Assembly (NCBI GenBank): GCA_938036585.1
Contig: CALHQN010000005.1
Span: 1-17,560 of the forward strand
Direction of reading: 5' to 3'
DNA from: an uncultured Campylobacter sp.
Lineage (GTDB): Bacteria; Campylobacterota; Campylobacteria; Campylobacterales; Campylobacteraceae
DNA length: 17,560 nt
Numbering within the stretch: position 1 is the first letter of the stretch; the number at the start of each line of letters is the position of its first letter. The translations under genes were made by a program, and so were the position numbers. Below, piece by piece: positions 6,198 through 17,046 of the stretch. The notes below the pieces were generated by a model, which was given only the letters and a program-made list of their open reading frames with translations, had not been told where the DNA came from and did not search any database.

Positions 6198-6836
6198 CTA
6201 TCTTAGATAATCGATCAGTCTGGCGGAGATTTCGCGAAACTGTAAAATTTTATGCCCCTTTTTCTCGCGCATGAAGTCCTGCGCGTCGCGTAGTCTCGCA
6301 AACGTGATGAGATCGTCGCCTCTGGCGCTTTGCAGCACGCTGCCAAAAACATAAAACGCGTCCTGTGCCCGCAAAATTTCGCCGCTTGCGTAATCGGTAA
6401 CGTAAAGTTCCGCACCGCCGAAATTCGCGCCCGTAGAATTTGCCTCGCCGAAATTGCCGCTAGCAGGATTTTTGCTCATCAAATTTTCCTCTGCGGAAGC
6501 CGCGCCGTTATTGCCGCTCAAATTTTTACCCTCGAAAAAATATGCAAACATCGCCTTGGGCGAAGCAAACGCTAGCGCGCTGCCGTCTTTGAGCCTTGCA
6601 TAGGCGCGAAATTCAGGGTGCGCGCTAGTATCGATGCCGTATTTGGCGCAGGTAAGATTTACGTCTTTAAGCCACGCAGGCTCGCGCACGTTTTTAAAAT
6701 TCTGCACCGAGTCGGAGCCCGTATTATCAGGCGTGCCTAAATTTTGCGCCGAGCCGGAGCTCTGAGCCGCGGAATTTTGCATCTCCACTGCGCCGCAAAG
6801 CGCTATAAATGCCGCCAAAATGAGTGGAAATTTCAC
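6198..6836 (-). CDS. Second NosL-like protein lacking the usual metal ligands
   Basis: A 212-residue exported protein at the end of the nos operon. It starts with GTG at 6834-6836, overlapping the nosY stop (GTGA) and preceded by AAGGA. Residues 1-16 look like a Sec signal peptide; the Cys14 context (IALC) is a poor lipobox. The NosL-like core is visible: RLKDGSALAFASPKAMFAYF (81-100) corresponds to the GKNHYFDDIGCLVDFM part of canonical NosL, and 144-205 (YVTDYASGEI, AFYVFGS, ITFARLRDAQDFM, ILQFREI) fits the second half. The copper-binding C-x2-C-x-M motif is absent; the only mature Cys is Cys63. Two Asn/Ser/Gly-rich linkers (about 20-48 and 103-142) carry RAATTY words. It probably assists NosL or NosY in maturation; the exact role is unknown. 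Confidence 0.65.
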   Translation of the reverse strand: MKFPLILAAFIALCGAVEMQNSAAQSSGSAQNLGTPDNTGSDSVQNFKNVREPAWLKDVNLTCAKYGIDTSAHPEFRAYARLKDGSALAFASPKAMFAYFFEGKNLSGNNGAASAEENLMSKNPASGNFGEANSTGANFGGAELYVTDYASGEILRAQDAFYVFGSVLQSARGDDLITFARLRDAQDFMREKKGHKILQFREISARLIDYLR

Positions 6837-7660: not shown

Positions 7661-7800
7661 TCTTTTCCTTTATTGCGCCTCGGTGCGCTTTTAAATTTAG
7701 ATTTCTCGCGCGGCTTAAATGCGCCGCCCGTCTTTAAATTTTAGCCTCGTTTTGCAGCGCGGATTTCGCGGCCTTAAATTTTGCCCGTATAGCGTTTAAA

Positions 7801-7828
7801 CAAGCGGCAAAATTTTATCCGCCGCTTG
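7801..7828. repeat. 8-bp perfect inverted repeat (hairpin) upstream of nosY
   Basis: The arms CAAGCGGC (7801-7808) and GCCGCTTG (7821-7828) pair perfectly around a 12-nt A/T-rich loop that contains AAAATTTT. In the minus-strand transcript the stem is followed by only three U residues before the sequence turns mixed, so it would be a weak intrinsic terminator at best. It lies about 140 bp before the nosY start codon and could be a processing or stability element. Confidence 0.45.
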
Positions 7829-7879
7829 CGATTGCGGCTCGCGCATAAATTTTAAATTTACGGCTCGCTTGCGGCGCCT

Positions 7880-7899
7880 GCAAATAGCGCGCTATTTGC
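7880..7899. repeat. Perfect 20-bp palindrome between nosL and nosY
   Basis: The half-site GCAAATAGCG is followed directly by its exact reverse complement CGCTATTTGC. As RNA it can form an 8-bp stem with a CGCG loop; as DNA it is a symmetrical site that a dimeric regulator could bind. It is not followed by a T-run. It is one of the longest exact palindromes I noticed in the window. Confidence 0.5.
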
Positions 7900-8318
7900 C
7901 GCCCGCTATCCGTCATCTGCCGCAGTTTTAAAATTTAGCCGTTTAACGGAACTGCTTAAATTTCAGCTTCGTAAAATTTCAAAAACGGGGCGTATTCCGC
8001 GGCATAAAATTTAAAATTCTAAAAATCTCGAAGCGACAAATTCCGCACTGGATAAATTTTAAATTTACGGCGAAATTTTAAGCTAGCGCGTCCATGTAAA
8101 TTTTAATTCGGCAGAACGAAATCTCGCGCCGTGCGTTAAATTTAGCCGTATCGCGAGATAAATTTCACTACCGTTAGGCGCCAGACTTTGCCTCGCGCCG
8201 AAGTTGCAAAGTAAAATTTCATCTCGTCTGCTCTCGTTTACGGCGGCGCGCTGAAATTCAGGCTTTAAATTTAGTGCAAAACGAAGCCCCTTAAAATTTC
8301 GTCTTAGCCAAAGCGTCC

Positions 8319-8573
8319 TTAATGCGAGTGCCCTGAAGGCATATCGTGCGCTGCACCGCCGCTTTCGTGCATATCGTGCGGTGAGCCTTGAGGATGTGCC
8401 GTGCTGCCTGCATCGCCGCCGCCCATATCATGCTTAGGCCCGCTCATGCCGTGCTCTGCGGAGTGAGGGTCTTTCATGCCGCCCATATCGCCATGACCGT
8501 GCATATTTCCCATATTGCCGTGCGCATCGCGACCCATATCGCCCATTCCCATGCCGTGCGAGCCGCCGCCTGC
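8319..8573 (-). repeat. Degenerate repeats encoding the NosL His/Met tail
   Basis: On the plus strand this 3' third of nosL is built from short recurring words such as GCCCATATC, GCATATCGTGC and CCCAT, which on the coding strand give GAT-ATG-GGC and CAC-GAT-ATG type codon runs (Asp-Met-Gly, His-Asp-Met). The repetition is imperfect, as expected for a tail that grew by small duplications and then drifted. Confidence 0.5.
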
Positions 8574-8990
8574 TTTAAGCGCCGCGACTACTTGATCGAA
8601 GCTGAAGTCTTGCTTGCCCTCTTGCTTGTTTTTAAACGCGCCCCAGCCGAACGACATAGGGGTTTTAAAGCCCTTGTAAAAATGCGCCGTGCGTGCGTCG
8701 ATAAACTCGCCGTTGCCGCTAGCGTCATTGATGTAAATTTTGGCGTCCTTCAGCCAGTTTAGTTTGTCGTTGGTAACCATAAAATCCACCAAGCAGCCGA
8801 TGTCGTCGAAGTAGTGGTTTTTGCCGTCCACGCGCACATCGACGCTGAAGCGGTTGTCGCTGATCGCCATCTGGCAGTGCTCGCACACGTCTCTGTCGTA
8901 GTGGATGTTGCCGTAGTCCTTCTCGTCGCCGCAGCCTAAAAACGTAAGCGCAATAAGTGCGCAAAGTAAAGCTTTAAACATTTTTGTCAT
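8319..8990 (-). CDS. nosL: NosL copper-chaperone lipoprotein with a His/Met-rich C-terminal tail
   Basis: A 223-residue lipoprotein. The signal peptide ends in FLGC, with Cys20 as the lipidated residue. The NosL domain follows: C36-x2-C39-x-M41, then the conserved GKNHYFDDIGCLVDFM (57-71) and NDASGNGEFIDARTAHFY (88-105). NosL binds Cu(I) and delivers copper to apo-NosZ in the periplasm. Residues 141-223 are unusual: a Gly-rich, disordered-looking tail with 13 His and 11 Met, many as GM, HGH, HDM or HxH, ending in HSH. It probably binds additional copper. The ATG at 8988-8990 has GGAGGA upstream and overlaps nosF by 17 bp; Met4 is a less likely alternative start. The gene sits between nosF and nosY, not at the end of the cluster. 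Confidence 0.92.
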   Translation of the reverse strand: MTKMFKALLCALIALTFLGCGDEKDYGNIHYDRDVCEHCQMAISDNRFSVDVRVDGKNHYFDDIGCLVDFMVTNDKLNWLKDAKIYINDASGNGEFIDARTAHFYKGFKTPMSFGWGAFKNKQEGKQDFSFDQVVAALKAGGGSHGMGMGDMGRDAHGNMGNMHGHGDMGGMKDPHSAEHGMSGPKHDMGGGDAGSTAHPQGSPHDMHESGGAAHDMPSGHSH

Positions 8991-10526: not shown

Positions 10527-10976
10527 TTACTCTTTAAATTTTGAAATTTCATCCGCGAGCTTATCTAGGCTCTCGTCGCTTACGTTGGTTAAAAGTCCGC
10601 TCATCAGGCTGTTTTTGATCTTACCCGCTTTATAATCTTTGAGGCTTGCTAAAATTTGATCCTTGCTCTTGCCGCCGATCGGCGGAGCGATCTTGCCGCG
10701 TCCGTCGTCGCCGTGGCAAGGCGCACAGCTTACCAGATATGAGCTGCTTACCTCAAAGTCGCGCTCTTTGACGCTCTGCTGCAAAATTTTAATATTTTTT
10801 ACGTCCTTATCGTCGATAAGATCGACGCTTTTGCTCTGCGGCGCTGGTTTTGTTTGTGCCTGCGGCTTAGCCTGCTCCTGTTTCGGCGCGCCGGAACCGC
10901 CCGAGCTTGCCATAAAGATCATCAGCGCGATCAGCGCTACACCCAGAATCAAAGCTAAAATTTTACCCGGTTTCAT
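10527..10976 (-). CDS. nosC2: NosC2, membrane-anchored monohaem cytochrome c
   Basis: A 149-residue cytochrome c. Residues ~5-22 form a hydrophobic N-terminal anchor or signal; 30-50 are a Lys/Pro/Gln-rich linker. The haem-binding motif is C84-AP-C87-H88, followed by GDDGRGKIAPPIGGKS, and Met125 is the likely sixth ligand. It is expected to shuttle electrons in the periplasm between the NosGH quinol dehydrogenase and the cytochrome domain of NosZ. The start ATG overlaps the nosC1 stop (ATGA), and the gene lies 3 bp before nosH. Confidence 0.9.
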   Translation of the reverse strand: MKPGKILALILGVALIALMIFMASSGGSGAPKQEQAKPQAQTKPAPQSKSVDLIDDKDVKNIKILQQSVKERDFEVSSSYLVSCAPCHGDDGRGKIAPPIGGKSKDQILASLKDYKAGKIKNSLMSGLLTNVSDESLDKLADEISKFKE

Positions 10977-11620
10977 TTCTGCTCCTTAAATTGTTGATTG
11001 AACTCGTAAATTTCTTTCGCCATCGTCTCTATCTGCTGCTCGCTCATTCCGTTTACGAGCTGCACCATAAGAGGATTGGGTTTTTCTTTGAACTTGTATT
11101 TTTTTATCATATCCACGATCTGCGTGTCGGTTTTATCCAGAAGCGAAGGACCGATGATGCCGTTGGCGTAGTCGTCGTGGCACGCCGAGCAGCGCAGGAT
11201 AAAGTCCCTGCCCAGGCGCTTTTTCATCAGGTCGAAATTTAGCTTTTCGTATTGGTTTTTGATGCTTGAATACGCCACGATATTTTTGGTCGTTTCATTC
11301 ACGTCGCCGTTTAGATTAAAATTTACCATTCGCTCGCCGTAAAAATCGTAGCTTACGAACTTATCGTCCCGCTTTGGCGCTTCGCCGCTTTTGACGGTGA
11401 TGCGGGGCCTAGCGGCGGAGCTTTGCTCCGCGCTCTGCGATGCGGAATTTGAACTCGCGGAATTCTGATCCGCAGAATTTTGCCCTGCGGAGCCTTGCGA
11501 AACGGAATTTTGCCCTGTGGAATTTGCAGCGGCGGAGCTTGAATCGCCGTCATCTCCGCAGCCGCACAGCAAAAGCGCCGCAGCTAGCGAGCAGATGTAG
11601 AATTTAATGGAGCTTTTCAT
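10973..11620 (-). CDS. nosC1: NosC1, monohaem cytochrome c lipoprotein
   Basis: A 215-residue cytochrome c. The signal peptide ends in a lipobox-like LCGC with Cys21 as the probable lipidated residue. Residues ~25-70 form an Asn/Ser/Gln/Ala linker containing five Asn-Ser pairs. The haem motif is C144-SA-C147-H148, with Met185 or Met192 as possible axial ligand. It works with NosC2 in electron transfer to NosZ on the outer face of the cytoplasmic membrane. Its ATG overlaps the nosG stop (4 bp) and its stop overlaps the nosC2 start (4 bp), showing tight coupling. The linker is written by a 15-bp-period DNA repeat, described separately. Length is increased by this linker compared with a minimal cytochrome domain. 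Confidence 0.9.
   Translation of the reverse strand: MKSSIKFYICSLAAALLLCGCGDDGDSSSAAANSTGQNSVSQGSAGQNSADQNSASSNSASQSAEQSSAARPRITVKSGEAPKRDDKFVSYDFYGERMVNFNLNGDVNETTKNIVAYSSIKNQYEKLNFDLMKKRLGRDFILRCSACHDDYANGIIGPSLLDKTDTQIVDMIKKYKFKEKPNPLMVQLVNGMSEQQIETMAKEIYEFNQQFKEQK
11445..11525 (-). repeat. 15-bp-period repeat with a GAATT core inside nosC1
   Basis: Five words of the RAATTY type start at 11445, 11460, 11475, 11505 and 11520, so spacings are 15, 15, 30 and 15 bp. Each word is in the same codon phase and gives Asn-Ser (AAT-TCN) on the coding strand, producing pentapeptide-like repeats such as Q-N-S-A-D in the NosC1 linker. Confidence 0.7.
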
Positions 11621-12441
11621 TGTTTTCCTTCATAGACTGATTTATAATCCGCCCGCGGGAGTATCTCGATGATACGCGCTGGGCAGAGCTCGGCGCACGC
11701 GCCGCAGCCGACGCACTCGCTACGGATCTGCGGGGCGAAATATTCATTCGCTTTTATCATCGCGATGGCGTCGAGCGGCTGCGGGTAAGGGCACAGCGAC
11801 GCGCATAGATCACAGACCTTGCCCTCTTTCGCAGCCAGCGCTGAGTTTAACTCGCGCTCCTGCTCGGTCTTGGCGGGCTTTAGACGCAGATCGCTAGACT
11901 TTAAAGTCTGCCCGCGATACGCCAAACAGGCGTCTAAATTTTTAATCACGGCGATACCCATCGCAACCTTTTTAGGCTCGTTAGTCTCGTGGCTGAGCGC
12001 GCCGCTTGGACAGGCGAGCACGCAAGGAAGCGCGCCGCAAAGATAGCAGCCTCGCTCTTTGGCGTCGATAACGGGAGTGCCGATATCAAAAAGATGGGTA
12101 ATATCCAGCAGATAGATGCTGTGATAGGGGCAGACCTGTACGCATTGGCCGCACTTGATACAGCTACTGCGGAAGCCGCGCTCCGCCAGCGCTCCCGGCG
12201 GGCGCAGATATAAAGAGGTGGAATCCCCGCTAGAATTTTTTGCGGAATTTTGTTTTATGGAATTCGGCGCAGAATTTTGCTCCGCAGAATTTACGGAATT
12301 TGACGCGCCGGAATTCTGCGCTTCGCCGCCCGTAAAATTTACGGAATTTGTGGAATTCTCATCCGCAAATAAGCTCGCTGCCCCTAGCGCCCCAAGCGCT
12401 CCGCCAAGTAGTTTTATCGTTTCGCGTCTATTCTTTATCAT
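11617..12441 (-). CDS. nosG: NosG, periplasmic 4Fe-4S ferredoxin (NapG-like), Tat substrate
   Basis: A 274-residue protein with a twin-arginine-like signal (N-R5-R6-ETIK, then a hydrophobic LLGGALGALGAASLFA), fitting export of a folded Fe-S protein. Four cysteine clusters follow: C94-C97-C100-C104, C132-C135-C140-C144, C210-C213-C217 and C243-C246-C249-C253. NosG should sit on the periplasmic side of NosH and take part in menaquinol oxidation. Between signal and first cluster (about 28-74) lies an Asn/Ser-rich insertion with ten Asn-Ser or Asn-Phe pairs. Both ends overlap neighbours by 4 bp (nosD upstream, nosC1 downstream). Confidence 0.9.
   Translation of the reverse strand: MIKNRRETIKLLGGALGALGAASLFADENSTNSVNFTGGEAQNSGASNSVNSAEQNSAPNSIKQNSAKNSSGDSTSLYLRPPGALAERGFRSSCIKCGQCVQVCPYHSIYLLDITHLFDIGTPVIDAKERGCYLCGALPCVLACPSGALSHETNEPKKVAMGIAVIKNLDACLAYRGQTLKSSDLRLKPAKTEQERELNSALAAKEGKVCDLCASLCPYPQPLDAIAMIKANEYFAPQIRSECVGCGACAELCPARIIEILPRADYKSVYEGKQ
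12233..12358 (-). repeat. In-phase cluster of ten RAATTY words inside nosG
   Basis: GAATTT, GAATTC or AAATTT start at 12233, 12245, 12260, 12272, 12287, 12296, 12311, 12335, 12344 and 12353. All spacings (9, 12, 15 or 24 bp) are multiples of three, so every copy is in the same codon phase and encodes Asn-Ser, or Asn-Phe once. They make up the low-complexity linker between the Tat signal and the first Fe-S cluster of NosG. Confidence 0.8.
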
Positions 12442-13643
12442 TGCCTCATCCTAGGTTTTGGATCTTTCAATAGTAGCTCGGGCTCTGAAAACGGAGCTAG
12501 CTTGGAGATGAAATTTAAAAGCGCGATCCCGCTGGAGCCGTAGAAAAATCGCACGCTAGGCTTATGCGCCCAAAGCCTATCCGCGTAGGCGTATGCTGCG
12601 TAGCTCACATCGCCGTAGCCGTCGCCGTCGCGGTCAAATCCGTCGTAATCGTCGAAGTAGTTGCCGATCCATTCATTTTCCAAAAGCTTGGATTGCGGGG
12701 TATCGTTTAGCGCGATCTCCATATTGCCTTTAAATTTGTTGTCTTTAAAGATGCTTTTTAGCTGCGTAGCGTGGAATTGCACGCCGATGCTGTTGTATTG
12801 CACGTCGTTACGCTCAAAAACATTCGTGCTGCCAGGCTGATACGGAGACTGATCCAGATAAAATCCGCGGGCGTTGTAGATGACTTTATTGTCGGTGATC
12901 GTAAAATTTGAACTATCCTTCATACCGATACCTACGCCGTAAGCGCCGTCTGCGTTGCGTACGACGTTGCGTCTGGCGATATTGTCGCTCGAATACATAA
13001 AAAATAATCCCACGGTGTTGCCGTCGTAGTAGTTATCCTCCACGACGTTGTGCCCGGAGTTCATAAAGTGCAATGAATAACGGCAGCTGTGGCCTTTATT
13101 GCCTGCGACGAGATTGCCGTTTGAGAAGTAAAAAACGGTGTCGCGGACGTTGTGGACGTCGTTATTTAAAATTTTATTGGCGTTGGAATACCAAAGCTTT
13201 ATGCCGTCGCCTTTGAAACTCGTGCGGTAGGCGTTGCTCGAAATTTCATTGCCCTCGATCGTTACGTCGTTTGCCTTGCTTAGCACGACGCCGTAGAGCA
13301 CGTCTTTGATGAGATTATTTTTTATGATTGCGCCGTTTACGTCGCTTACGTTGATGCCCGCATCCTCGCTAAGATGCTCGAAGCCTCCGTTTTGAATCGT
13401 TAAATTTTTGATCGTAACGTGCGAAGCGCGGACGCGGATCACCGTTCCGTTGTGATCGCCTATGATCACGGCGGAGCGGTCTAGCCCGTCGATAGTAAGG
13501 GGTTTATCGATTAAAACGTTGCCGTGGTACTCACCCGCGGCTAGTTCGATAATATCGCCCGCTTTTGCGCTATCGATCGCGTCTTGAAGCTCGCCCGCGC
13601 CTAGAATTAGGGCGAGCGAGAATGCAAGAAAGAAAAGCTTCAT
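12438..13643 (-). CDS. nosD: NosD, periplasmic beta-helix maturation protein
   Basis: A 401-residue exported protein with a Sec signal (cleavage near residue 16, LGAG-EL). The body is a right-handed beta-helix of PbH1/CASH type: repeated turns such as VTIKNLTIQNGG, IIKNNLIKDV, VTIEGNEISSNAY, NKILNNDVHNV, NVVEDNYYDGNTVG and FTITDNKVIYN, spaced about 22-25 residues apart. The end contains GNYFDDYDGFDRDGDGYGD (about residues 330-348), the acidic segment typical of NosD. NosD is the periplasmic part of the NosDFY complex needed for CuZ assembly. It overlaps nosB and nosG by 4 bp each. Its length fits the family. Confidence 0.93.
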   Translation of the reverse strand: MKLFFLAFSLALILGAGELQDAIDSAKAGDIIELAAGEYHGNVLIDKPLTIDGLDRSAVIIGDHNGTVIRVRASHVTIKNLTIQNGGFEHLSEDAGINVSDVNGAIIKNNLIKDVLYGVVLSKANDVTIEGNEISSNAYRTSFKGDGIKLWYSNANKILNNDVHNVRDTVFYFSNGNLVAGNKGHSCRYSLHFMNSGHNVVEDNYYDGNTVGLFFMYSSDNIARRNVVRNADGAYGVGIGMKDSSNFTITDNKVIYNARGFYLDQSPYQPGSTNVFERNDVQYNSIGVQFHATQLKSIFKDNKFKGNMEIALNDTPQSKLLENEWIGNYFDDYDGFDRDGDGYGDVSYAAYAYADRLWAHKPSVRFFYGSSGIALLNFISKLAPFSEPELLLKDPKPRMRQ

Positions 13644-14454: not shown

Positions 14455-17046
14455 TTAGTTAAGACCGGCGTTTTCGTCTATCCATTTTAGATATTCGATG
14501 ATATCTTTGATCTCGTCGTCTTTCATATGCTGATTAGGCATTCTTAAATTGAAGTAATTGATCATAGCCTTGACATAGTCGTCTTCGTAGAATTTAGCCG
14601 GATCTTTGATGAAATCGGCTACCCACTTCTCGCCGTTTTCGTGGCGAAGTAGTACGCCCGTTAGATCAGGGCCAGAGCTTACTTGACCGATTACGTGGCA
14701 GCCGTTGCAGCCCCCGCGTAGATAGGCTTTTTCGCCCTTAGACGCAGCCTCACTCATAGGGGTGGAGAGCTCGCGGATTAGGTTATTTTTAGCGCGAAGT
14801 CCGACGTCCGCGGTCTTGACTAGATACTGCCAAATTTGACCCTCCCAAAGTATCGCGCCGTTCATATCGCCCGCTTTTACCGCGGCGTCCGCTTTAGCTT
14901 TGGTCTCGGGAATTTTGCCGTATTGATCCAGCGCGTCATCGACTAAAGCCTTGACCTTAGGATATTTCTCGTAGTTTTTCTCTTTTAAGAATTTAACGAC
15001 TGATTGAATAACGTCGTCGGTGGCTTTATTCGTAGCTACTACCTTGTCGTATTCGGCTTTTAGAGCCTCAGGGCTAAGAGCTTTTAGCATAGATGCTTTG
15101 GCCGATTCATATTTTTTGTTCGGATCTTTTACATATAGGTAGCCGAACATCTCAAGGTGTAGCGCAGAGCAGAATTCCGTACAGTAGAAAGGAAATACGC
15201 CTTCGCGATCCGCGATGAAATTTACGCTCGCGGTCTTACCTGGCTCAAGCGACATATGCACGTTGTAATTATCGACCGTAAAGCCGTGGGTCTCGTCCTC
15301 GGCACGCTCTAAATTTGTCATATAGATCGTTACGTTATCGTCCTTATTAACCTCGATATGCTCAGGGTTGATATGGCTGCGGATCGCAGTAGCATAGACT
15401 TTTACGTTTTTGCCGTCGCGCTCAATTCGCTCTTGACCCGCTAGCGTCATAGAAGGGTGCGGCTTTCCGGTGCGCGAGTTCGTACCCATAGTATAGGTAG
15501 GCGCCGTGTGAAGCTTGCTCGCAGCGATCGAGACGACGTCGTGCGGCTCGCCAAGACCGATAGGAAGATCGTAAATCATCTCCATTTTAGGTCCCGTGAT
15601 GTCGATCAGCTGGTGATTTTGCGGATGAAGCGGTCCGATAGGATTAAATCTATCGATCGAAAGCTTATCCAGCGCGATTACGTATTTGCCGACCGGTTTA
15701 GAGGATTTACCCTCCATGGAATCGAGGTGACCGATATTGTAGTGGACGTTGATTCTATCTAAAACCTTTAGCGTCTTGTAGTTCCATTTTACGATCTGGC
15801 TATCGACGTAAAGCGACGTATAGATTATGCCGTCTTGCGAATCGAAGGTGTTGTGAAGAGGTCCAAGACCAAGTTCCGCTTGTCCGTGAAGCGTCTTTTG
15901 CATATCTAGGATCGGAATTCCGTATGGGTCTTTGCCCGTAAATTCCTTCTTATCGATTAGCTCTTTGATCTTTTTGAAATCATAAACGCTAGCGTGGGTA
16001 TCGAGTTTGCCGCCGATGATAATGTAGCGGCCATCCGGGCTAACGTCCACGCCGTGAGGAGATTTGGCCTCTGGGATCAAAAACAAAGCGCCCGCTTTTA
16101 CCGCAGCGTCTATCGTAACTACTCTGTGGCCGTTTACGATCTTATAGTTTTTGCTGTCTTGCGCAAGCTTTTCTAAAATTTGCCAGTTGTAAACATGCAA
16201 GTAGTCGGTGTCGTTGCGGCTCATACCCGCTTCCATCGGAGGAAGACCCTTTTCGATACCGCCAGTGTACATTTCGGAGTTAAAGCTGTTGGTAAACGCC
16301 CAGCCGAAGCTCTCGCCCTTACCCGCGTCGCTTAGATCTTGCATATATGGAGGAAGCTCAAGTGAGAAAGATTTGCTCTCGTCGATCCTGCCTTTGTCGT
16401 AGTCGAATTTCCATAGCGTTACCGCGCCGCGATAGACCGCCTGATACTCTTCGATCGGGTGCCAATCGTTATCAAGAGGGGTCGCGTACTGGCTTGCTTC
16501 GATGACGTACTCGGTATTAGGCGTGACGAAAGAGCCGCCGTGTTCGCTTTTAATCACCGGATTTACCACTATTTGAGTGGTTTCGAAATCTTTTAAATTT
16601 ATAACCGCCAAGCGCGGATTTGCCTTGTCGTTGATGAAGAGATAATCGCCCACGTACTCGCCGTTTTTCTCGCTGAAATTCGGGTGGTGGGTGTCGCCCC
16701 AGGTGATCTGTTTGCCATTAATGGCACCTTCTTTTAAAACCGCCTTACTCTCCTCGTCAAAGCCGTATCCCTGCCAAGGCTCCGGAGTAAATACGCCGAT
16801 ATATTTGTAGATCCTCATCGACGGTACGCCGTAAACCAGCACCTGTCCGCTTTGACCGCCGGAGGAGAACACCATATAATCGTCCTTCCTGCCGGTCGGC
16901 TGATAGGTCTTAGCGGCCGCCAAAACGTCCTTCTCGCTTAAATTTCGCTCCTTCATCACGCGCTCTAGCTCGCTATCTGCGGCACACAGGGCGCTTGCGG
17001 CGAACAAAACCGAGCCTAAAAGCACGGGTTTGATACATGTAAGCAT
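14455..17046 (-). CDS. nosZ: NosZ, clade II nitrous oxide reductase with C-terminal cytochrome c domain
   Basis: An 863-residue enzyme that reduces N2O to N2 in the periplasm. The N-terminus is a Sec-type signal (cleavage near residue 22, ALCA), with no twin arginine, as in clade II. A seven-bladed beta-propeller follows with the seven CuZ histidines in conserved contexts: DTH120-H121P, SEH169GG, SPH331GVD, GPLH398N, IGH439LD and EPH502D. The CuA cupredoxin domain has H587 and C622-TEF-C626-SAL-H630-LE-M633. After a helical linker (about 645-765), a monohaem cytochrome c domain carries C780-NG-C783-H784, with Met836 as probable axial ligand. This fusion is typical of Wolinella/Campylobacter NosZ and takes electrons from NosC1/NosC2. 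AAGGAAAT precedes the ATG at 17044-17046. The gene follows the upstream gene by 13 bp. Confidence 0.98.
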   Translation of the reverse strand: MLTCIKPVLLGSVLFAASALCAADSELERVMKERNLSEKDVLAAAKTYQPTGRKDDYMVFSSGGQSGQVLVYGVPSMRIYKYIGVFTPEPWQGYGFDEESKAVLKEGAINGKQITWGDTHHPNFSEKNGEYVGDYLFINDKANPRLAVINLKDFETTQIVVNPVIKSEHGGSFVTPNTEYVIEASQYATPLDNDWHPIEEYQAVYRGAVTLWKFDYDKGRIDESKSFSLELPPYMQDLSDAGKGESFGWAFTNSFNSEMYTGGIEKGLPPMEAGMSRNDTDYLHVYNWQILEKLAQDSKNYKIVNGHRVVTIDAAVKAGALFLIPEAKSPHGVDVSPDGRYIIIGGKLDTHASVYDFKKIKELIDKKEFTGKDPYGIPILDMQKTLHGQAELGLGPLHNTFDSQDGIIYTSLYVDSQIVKWNYKTLKVLDRINVHYNIGHLDSMEGKSSKPVGKYVIALDKLSIDRFNPIGPLHPQNHQLIDITGPKMEMIYDLPIGLGEPHDVVSIAASKLHTAPTYTMGTNSRTGKPHPSMTLAGQERIERDGKNVKVYATAIRSHINPEHIEVNKDDNVTIYMTNLERAEDETHGFTVDNYNVHMSLEPGKTASVNFIADREGVFPFYCTEFCSALHLEMFGYLYVKDPNKKYESAKASMLKALSPEALKAEYDKVVATNKATDDVIQSVVKFLKEKNYEKYPKVKALVDDALDQYGKIPETKAKADAAVKAGDMNGAILWEGQIWQYLVKTADVGLRAKNNLIRELSTPMSEAASKGEKAYLRGGCNGCHVIGQVSSGPDLTGVLLRHENGEKWVADFIKDPAKFYEDDYVKAMINYFNLRMPNQHMKDDEIKDIIEYLKWIDENAGLN

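Follow-up and report, generated by a model that had tools for sequence, protein, structure and literature searches.

The DNA word RAATTY in a linker of a Campylobacter nos cluster and its excess across related genomes

The locus and its features

The window, by which we mean the whole analysed stretch of 17,560 nucleotides from an uncultured Campylobacter sp., carries a nos (nitrous oxide reduction) gene cluster in which curated models recognise Sec-dependent NosZ, NosD, and a NapH-type ferredoxin above their cut-offs (Table 1). The closest genome compared, G071, which we take to be Campylobacter gracilis, is a single contig of 2,281,652 bp that aligns with the window over 10.7 kb at 91%, with a NosG identity of 89%. 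Two close relatives of NosG that bear a name, P0003 and P0009, are labelled 'uncultured Campylobacter sp.'. A search for near-identical DNA in plasmids found none, and no relatives of NosG were confirmed in viral contigs. The cytochrome-like protein next to NosG may be lipoprotein-like, judging by the motif near its N-terminus. Elsewhere in the window, the ORF at 8319-8990, which holds one RAATTY word (8735), ends in a Met/His-rich C-terminal tail that is perhaps metal-binding.

Table 1. Features of the window with their coordinates, strand, and basis
Feature	Coordinates	Strand	Basis
NosG-like ferredoxin (NapG/MauM-type 4Fe-4S protein), linker at residues 29-70	11617..12441	-	Fer4 families of Pfam above cut-off; NapG and MauM/NapG models of NCBIfam below it
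Ten RAATTY words in one codon phase, read as nine Asn-Ser and one Asn-Phe	12233..12358	-	Word scan, codon reading, shuffles
Two 21-nt copies (12282-12302 and 12330-12350), 90% alike, inside the NosG linker	12282..12350	no strand	Sign of local duplication
Second RAATTY cluster, five words spelling the Asn-Ser linker of protein 10973-11620	11445..11525	-	Word scan, codon reading
Cytochrome-like protein with NS-rich linker, LLLCGCG near N-terminus	10973..11620	-	Pfam: no match; c551 weak, under cut-off
RAATTY-rich spacer, 22 words over about 0.6 kb	7693..8299	no strand	Word scan
Sec-dependent nitrous-oxide reductase NosZ (context)	14455..17046	-	TIGR04246 over cut-off
NosD (context)	12438..13643	-	TIGR04247 over cut-off

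The NosG linker

The linker of NosG is placed between a twin-arginine N-terminus (a putative Tat signal) and the first CxxCxxC. A word scan confirmed the claim of an earlier, sequence-only reading that ten RAATTY words stand here in one codon phase: they start at 12233, 12245, 12260, 12272, 12287, 12296, 12311, 12335, 12344, and 12353, every spacing between them is a multiple of three, and on the plus strand they read GAATTT (six), GAATTC (three), and AAATTT (one). Its further claim that each word yields Asn-Ser or Asn-Phe was borne out by the codons, Asn being written AAT, the next codon TC.. or TT.., and the preceding codon ending in A or G.

When the codons of NosG were shuffled synonymously within the gene, the linker held 4.06 words on average and 8 at most, and drawing its codons from the usage of the window ORFs or of the G071 sample gave 2.01 and 2.07 words, respectively; 0 of 5000 trials reached ten under any of the three schemes. 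All ten of its Asn-Ser/Asn-Phe pairs are spelled by RAATTY, as against 14 of 30 outside the window's three NS/NF-rich segments (Fisher p = 0.003). Throughout this study, ORFs are mechanical (at least 100 aa, longest first), and some of those in word-rich spacers may be spurious. Across the window and a 400-kb sample of G071, the NosG linker is the densest cluster in any such ORF, four other ORF spots hold nine words, and six spots outside mechanical ORFs hold 10 or 11.

The sequence-only reading had also raised the question of whether the insert belongs to one lineage, and the alignment of orthologues came out on that side: seven close relatives have NS-rich linkers of varying length, and seven more distant ones (P0011, P0014, P0015, P0017, P0018, P0092, and P0103) are without it, so that the insert looks lineage-specific. 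The linker of the G071 orthologue has seven RAATTY words, some of them at other places than in the window. Two relatives, P0007 and P0008, have the Fe-S part in common with the window NosG and an unrelated N-terminus and linker, and the switch near the linker end suggests recombination at that point. The structure model of NosG, with 11 sequences, was poor (mean pLDDT 34).

A genome-wide excess of the word

A baseline of about one RAATTY per kb, as the sequence-only reading had assumed, holds for random sequence of 50% GC and fails for this genome: the window has 176 words, or 10.0/kb, where dinucleotide shuffles average 53, and sequence outside its ORFs of at least 100 aa has 22/kb. We rejected the random 50% GC null as too lenient and used within-gene synonymous shuffling instead. 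Twenty stretches of 20 kb from G071 have 9.8 words/kb, with 17/kb outside the ORFs, and the 361 ORFs hold 2510 words against about 1106 expected (O/E 2.27, z = 79). The count that the earlier reading had proposed is thus, in this sample of G071, far above expectation under a codon-preserving null. By reading frame, 850, 827, and 833 words were observed against 612, 180, and 314 expected.

In G071, Asn is written AAT in 88% of cases before Phe and in 31% before non-Ser codons that start with G, and a purine precedes AAT|TY in 89% of cases as against about 60% otherwise. When AATT is sorted by its flanks, the four R..Y words are all above the synonymous null and every other flank is below it. 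When 32 classes of palindromic hexamers are ranked, RAATTY comes out on top in each of the five genomes examined that bear the CtsM-like methyltransferase treated below, tenth in a pool of nine family genomes that lack it, and fourteenth in a 20-genome pool of the order. Against Markov models, the O/E in G071 is 1.40 at order 3 and 1.04 at order 4; the latter absorbs the excess, as it should if the 5-mers inside RAATTY are raised too, and we counted this result neither way.

Conservation of the word and its flanks points clearly in neither direction. Between the window and the corresponding G071 stretch (L111), a comparison of word and flank identity put class conservation of RAATTY at 93.2%, the top of 13 classes with at least 20 sites, but this class-level contrast vanished against a control of AT hexamers, per-base identity being 0.954 for both. 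The flanks of RAATTY have an identity of 0.878-0.891 against 0.911 overall, and those of the controls 0.898-0.903 (AT hexamers), 0.902-0.919 (YTTAAR), 0.889-0.914 (RAGCTY), and 0.923-0.935 (RATATY).

In this C. gracilis-like bacterium, and likewise in the majority of Campylobacter genomes sampled, RAATTY is loaded throughout the genome. The earlier proposal of selection for, or spread of, the word with the linker tolerating it is supported in substance, with the amendment that the linker is a local maximum of a genome-wide signal and not a case of isolated spread.

Linkers spelled by the word

We defined an NS/NF-rich segment as one with five or more NS or NF pairs in 40 aa, and found 17 in 322 kb of G071 ORFs; the genomes G055, G036, G126, and G070 (66-85 kb each) have 0, 0, 0, and 1. 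Within the G071 segments, RAATTY spells 61 of 68 NS and 31 of 33 NF pairs, in support of the earlier reading; outside them, the figures are 161 of 381 and 256 of 349.

A second, order-blind selection, which took polar low-complexity segments of 40 aa with at least four Asn, avoids choosing on residue order. It returned 20 segments in 337 kb of G071 and the window together, and in these the order of residues is strongly uneven: NS outnumbers SN by 76 to 14 (p = 2e-11), NF outnumbers FN by 22 to 6, and the counts are 38 vs 5 for QN and NQ, 23 vs 2 for KN and NK, and 27 vs 11 for EN and NE. Ala and Asn are balanced at 12 vs 12, and there is little asymmetry in GN and NG (12 vs 9) or DN and ND (3 vs 6). 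Every codon for Gln, Lys, and Glu has A or G in third position, so that the choice of residue ahead of Asn follows RAATTY too. The word spells 66 of the 76 NS pairs. A pool of other CtsM-bearing genomes gave 5 segments in 455 kb, with NS 6 vs SN 8 and RAATTY in one of the six NS; G055, G036, G126, and G070 gave 1, 1, 0, and 4 segments, with 3 NS and 4 SN in total. Genomes without CtsM gave one segment in 225 kb, and the order pool none in 350 kb.

The excess over codon and composition nulls, together with the fixed residue order and codons, indicates that it was the DNA word and not the peptide that accumulated, and we are highly confident that the word wrote the NosG linker. An Asn-rich linker with six NS/NF pairs and a RAATTY cluster is also found in the G071 ORF at L111 16577-17245, which is syntenic with the NosL-like window ORF at 6198-6836.

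A CtsM-like methyltransferase and its distribution

Methylation-dependent DNA discrimination through CtsM and RAATTY in Campylobacter jejuni was reportedly described by Beauchamp et al. in 2017. According to excerpts of published work, the enzyme for RAATTY is Cj0208 (M.CjeNI) in C. jejuni and the homologue of Cj0208 in C. coli (PMC4889913, PMC4687069), and one C. coli RAATTY gene is 1095 bp long (PMC8627207); the C. jejuni enzyme carries a D12-class annotation (PMC4294202), and the word is almost fully methylated in both species (PMC4294202, PMC4687069). In the genomes studied here, a D12 family of 360-370 aa matches Pfam PF02086 and carries the source names 'DNA adenine methylase', 'DNA modification methylase', and 'EcoRI methylase'. 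Its class, size, and names suggest that this family is CtsM.

A profile built from seven members detected a CtsM-grade orthologue, with a best E of at most 3.1e-78, in 133 of the 153 genomes of the family, a count that includes G086 with a broken frame, G064 with one internal stop, and partial matches in G063 and G125. The remaining 20 comprise 10 with a weak match (at most 156 bits) and 10 with none at E 1e-20. The CtsM homologue for which the sequence-only reading had suggested looking is present in G071 as a CtsM-like gene (C1:466512-467618, 488 bits). Among 328 genomes drawn evenly from the order, 35 have matches above 400 bits, and all 35 belong to the 133. Two orthologue-grade CtsM-like copies (659 and 524 bits) are found in G048. 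A partial CtsM-like match of 312 bits in another genome of the order, G184, stands beside a strong depletion of RAATTY (L272 and L273; 13 observed vs 41 expected), as if the word were restricted there. Each of the 12 genomes tested for a ComEC-family match, G071 among them, has one, irrespective of CtsM.

We compared the word with the methyltransferase in 38 of the 133 CtsM-bearing genomes (400 kb of G071, 80-100 kb of five, and 8-40 kb of the rest), in 20 CtsM-less family genomes (3-40 kb), and in 20 other genomes of the order (20 kb each); the CtsM-less G141 and G147 were dropped for expected counts below 5, and G086 and G184 were kept apart. Against the synonymous null, median O/E is 1.54 with CtsM (above 1.1 in 32 of 38), 0.95 in CtsM-less family genomes (3 of 18), and 0.85 in the other order genomes (4 of 20). 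The Mann-Whitney values for CtsM-bearing genomes vs the two other sets (p = 4e-6 and 1e-7) are descriptive, with kinship not removed; the word may have been inherited together with CtsM as a single trait, and the genomes are therefore not independent.

With CtsM, the density of RAATTY (median 7.8/kb, range 3.5-13.2) does not drop as GC rises (rho 0.16), and O/E climbs with GC (rho 0.62), as though the density were maintained, whereas without CtsM density drops with GC (rho -0.56). Outside ORFs of 60 aa or more, AATT has R..Y flanks in 81% of cases in G071, 55-85% in G055, G036, G126, and G070, and 60% in the pooled other enriched genomes, compared with 50% in the six exceptions described below, 34-35% in CtsM-less genomes, and 27% in two phages. 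These Campylobacter phages, CP220 and NCTC12673, have RAATTY O/E values of 0.76 and 0.62 in the ORFs of 40-kb stretches, which agrees with the 3-4 RAATTY sites/kb given for phages in an excerpt of PMC4889913; these two phages are an imperfect control for the mutation bias of the host because they replicate with their own T4-like machinery. Across the genomes sampled, RAATTY enrichment goes with the CtsM-like methyltransferase.

Exceptions and a longer form of the word

In most species sampled, AAATTT is the main carrier of the signal. GAATTT/AAATTC is raised as well in G071 (1.63) and several other genomes, and GAATTC in ORFs is rarely above expectation, with small counts, and is below it in G036 (3 vs 10.6) and G055 (5 vs 8.2).

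Six CtsM-bearing genomes are not above an O/E of 1.1, namely G013, G014, and G130-G133. The spacers of G013 and G014 have 18 and 20 GAATTC/kb, or 162 together against 11.8 expected at order 2, and 176 of 181 GAATTC in the two genomes have R..Y flanks. In their ORFs, GAATTC is the top 6-mer palindrome (24 vs 6.8 expected) and AAATTT is below expectation (34 vs 53). The excess of GAATTC with R..Y flanks means that these two genomes use RGAATTCY, a subset of RAATTY, and this loading rules them out as plain exceptions. In a tree of 17 rows without G014, the methyltransferases of G013 and G071 come out as sisters (support 97/93). Some of these spacers (L274, L284-L286) contain dense GGAATTCTAGAATTCC-like arrays, with 64 GAATTC in 3.5 kb and 98 in 5.0 kb, and TCTAGA is also raised in the spacers of both genomes (100 vs 19.5).

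In G130-G133, a search for a loaded word of the RAATTY kind found none, and RAATTY O/E is 0.79-1.04 despite a CtsM-grade orthologue. The G130 methyltransferase groups with those of G093, G095, G111, and G114 (support 100/99), apart from those of G131-G133, and a recent acquisition is therefore possible. G131 C1 holds two orthologue-grade CtsM-like copies (574 and 556 bits) in the absence of RAATTY enrichment. Conversely, the ctsM frame of G086 is broken (C1:185232-186315, two overlapping partial matches with internal stops) and its RAATTY O/E is still 1.55, which fits a recent loss of ctsM and proves nothing.

Uptake of self-DNA and alternative explanations

Uptake in C. jejuni is stated to be confined to DNA that CtsM has methylated at RAATTY (excerpts of PMC10046745 and PMC8468864). 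We hypothesize that CtsM would likewise methylate RAATTY, at the second A of the AA step, in the species studied here and that its uptake machine would, by analogy with C. jejuni, prefer DNA with methylated RAATTY. Transformation would then spread the word, and selection or drive would keep it where harm is least, such that loosely constrained linkers, e.g. residues 29-70 of NosG, would fill until they are largely RAATTY-encoded Asn-Ser and Asn-Phe. Methylation-dependent uptake of self-DNA is probably the force behind the word, and we assign a probability of roughly 0.6 to the reading in which RAATTY is loaded under such uptake and permissive linkers fill with Asn-Ser/Asn-Phe. Counting against it are the absence of a loaded word in G130-G133, the persistence of the word in G086, the dominance of AAATTT in several species, the possible joint inheritance of CtsM and the word, ComEC-family matches in genomes with and without CtsM alike, and a per-base identity of the word no different from that of AT hexamers. 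We see an even chance for a broader proposition, namely that Campylobacter has a methylation-read uptake language on RAATTY, kept at about 8-10/kb in many species whatever their GC, whose forms have diverged (AAATTT for the most part, RGAATTCY in G013/G014, and a broad RAATTY in the C. gracilis lineage), with the polar linkers of the C. gracilis lineage rewritten and an uptake signal thereby acting as a force of protein evolution.

A different origin would be a structural or mutational bias of the chromosome to A-tracts (AnTn without a TpA step), which would raise AAATTT and fill unconstrained linkers with no role in uptake. Because AAATTT carries nearly all of the signal in several species, such a preference could mimic loading; the prominence of AAATTT in most species sampled, the rise of TAAATT and AAAATT, and an identity of RAATTY no higher than that of AT hexamers are all in keeping with it. 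Against it stand the raised GAATTT/AAATTC in G071 and several others, the loading in G013/G014 of GAATTC, which is not an A-tract, the lack of any rise in most CtsM-less family genomes, most order relatives, and the two Campylobacter phages, and a density that with CtsM does not fall with GC. We regard this bias as an unlikely explanation.

RAATTY could also be kept for another role of its methylation, in strand choice during mismatch repair, in replication, or in gene control. The conservation of the methyltransferase and the nearly complete methylation of the word in the C. jejuni and C. coli excerpts cited above would suit such a role, but linker clusters and tight spacer arrays would seem to have no obvious use in repair or control, and the role reported for C. 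jejuni in the excerpt of PMC10046745 is discrimination in uptake, which together make this a distinctly improbable account.

Slippage or short duplications may instead have multiplied a few RAATTY units within the NosG linker, with no pressure on the word. The two 21-nt copies, several 12-nt near-repeats within the linker, and the differing linker length among NosG relatives attest that short duplications helped to build this linker, and their role as a contributor stands. As the sole cause they are refuted and hardly credible: Tandem Repeats Finder reported no array over 12233-12358 at a score of at least 30, spacer codons vary while RAATTY stays, and the excess extends across the genome and all three frames. 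Polar periplasmic linkers often contain Asn and Ser, and those described here are polar and presumably periplasmic, but protein-level selection for such linkers, with RAATTY as a by-product of codon usage, has next to no probability, a protein-first origin being ruled out by the asymmetry of residue order (NS over SN, QN over NQ) and by the codon spelling, seen in the order-blind NS pairs and in the failure of every codon shuffle to reach ten words.

Relation to known systems

The closest known system to the self-DNA uptake proposed here is the CtsM/RAATTY system of C. jejuni, which has the same word in the same genus and a D12-class adenine methyltransferase with an orthologue in G071. As far as the printed excerpts go, that system covers C. 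jejuni and C. coli; our observations differ in concerning an excess in many species, linkers of the C. gracilis lineage, and the RGAATTCY form in two genomes. Within the partial literature surveyed, to which the primary C. jejuni paper does not belong, we found no report of a genus-wide RAATTY excess, of linker spelling, or of the RGAATTCY form; the excess in C. jejuni may already be in print.

Excerpts of earlier papers describe abundant uptake words in Neisseriaceae and Pasteurellaceae (PMC7811141), lineage dialects among words of the DUS/USS kind (PMC3630211), and, in Neisseria and Haemophilus, words that are conserved and sit at sites slightly more tolerant of change (PMC2397512). RAATTY resembles the DUS of Neisseriaceae and the USS of Pasteurellaceae as a short word in large excess with lineage forms, and perhaps in its siting at permissive places. 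It differs in being shorter, palindromic, present at about 10/kb, and read through methylation in C. jejuni, and in dominating whole linkers here. If our reading is true, Campylobacter would be a further case of an uptake word, one read through methylation and varying in form from lineage to lineage, and drive could be tested directly against selection. Moreover, the linkers would be a clean example of a DNA-level signal that dictates protein sequence.

Restriction sites are usually avoided in genomes. The CtsM-like family shares its PF02086 match with type II D12-class modification methyltransferases, and the difference from these is that RAATTY is enriched here and not avoided. Other palindromes behave in their own ways: the ORFs of G071 (L111-L130) strongly avoid YGGCCR (O/E 0.22), YGTACR (0.30), and RTTAAY (0.38), perhaps as a trace of past restriction, and RAGCTY is up 1.3-2.1-fold over the synonymous null in all seven ranked sets, with and without CtsM.
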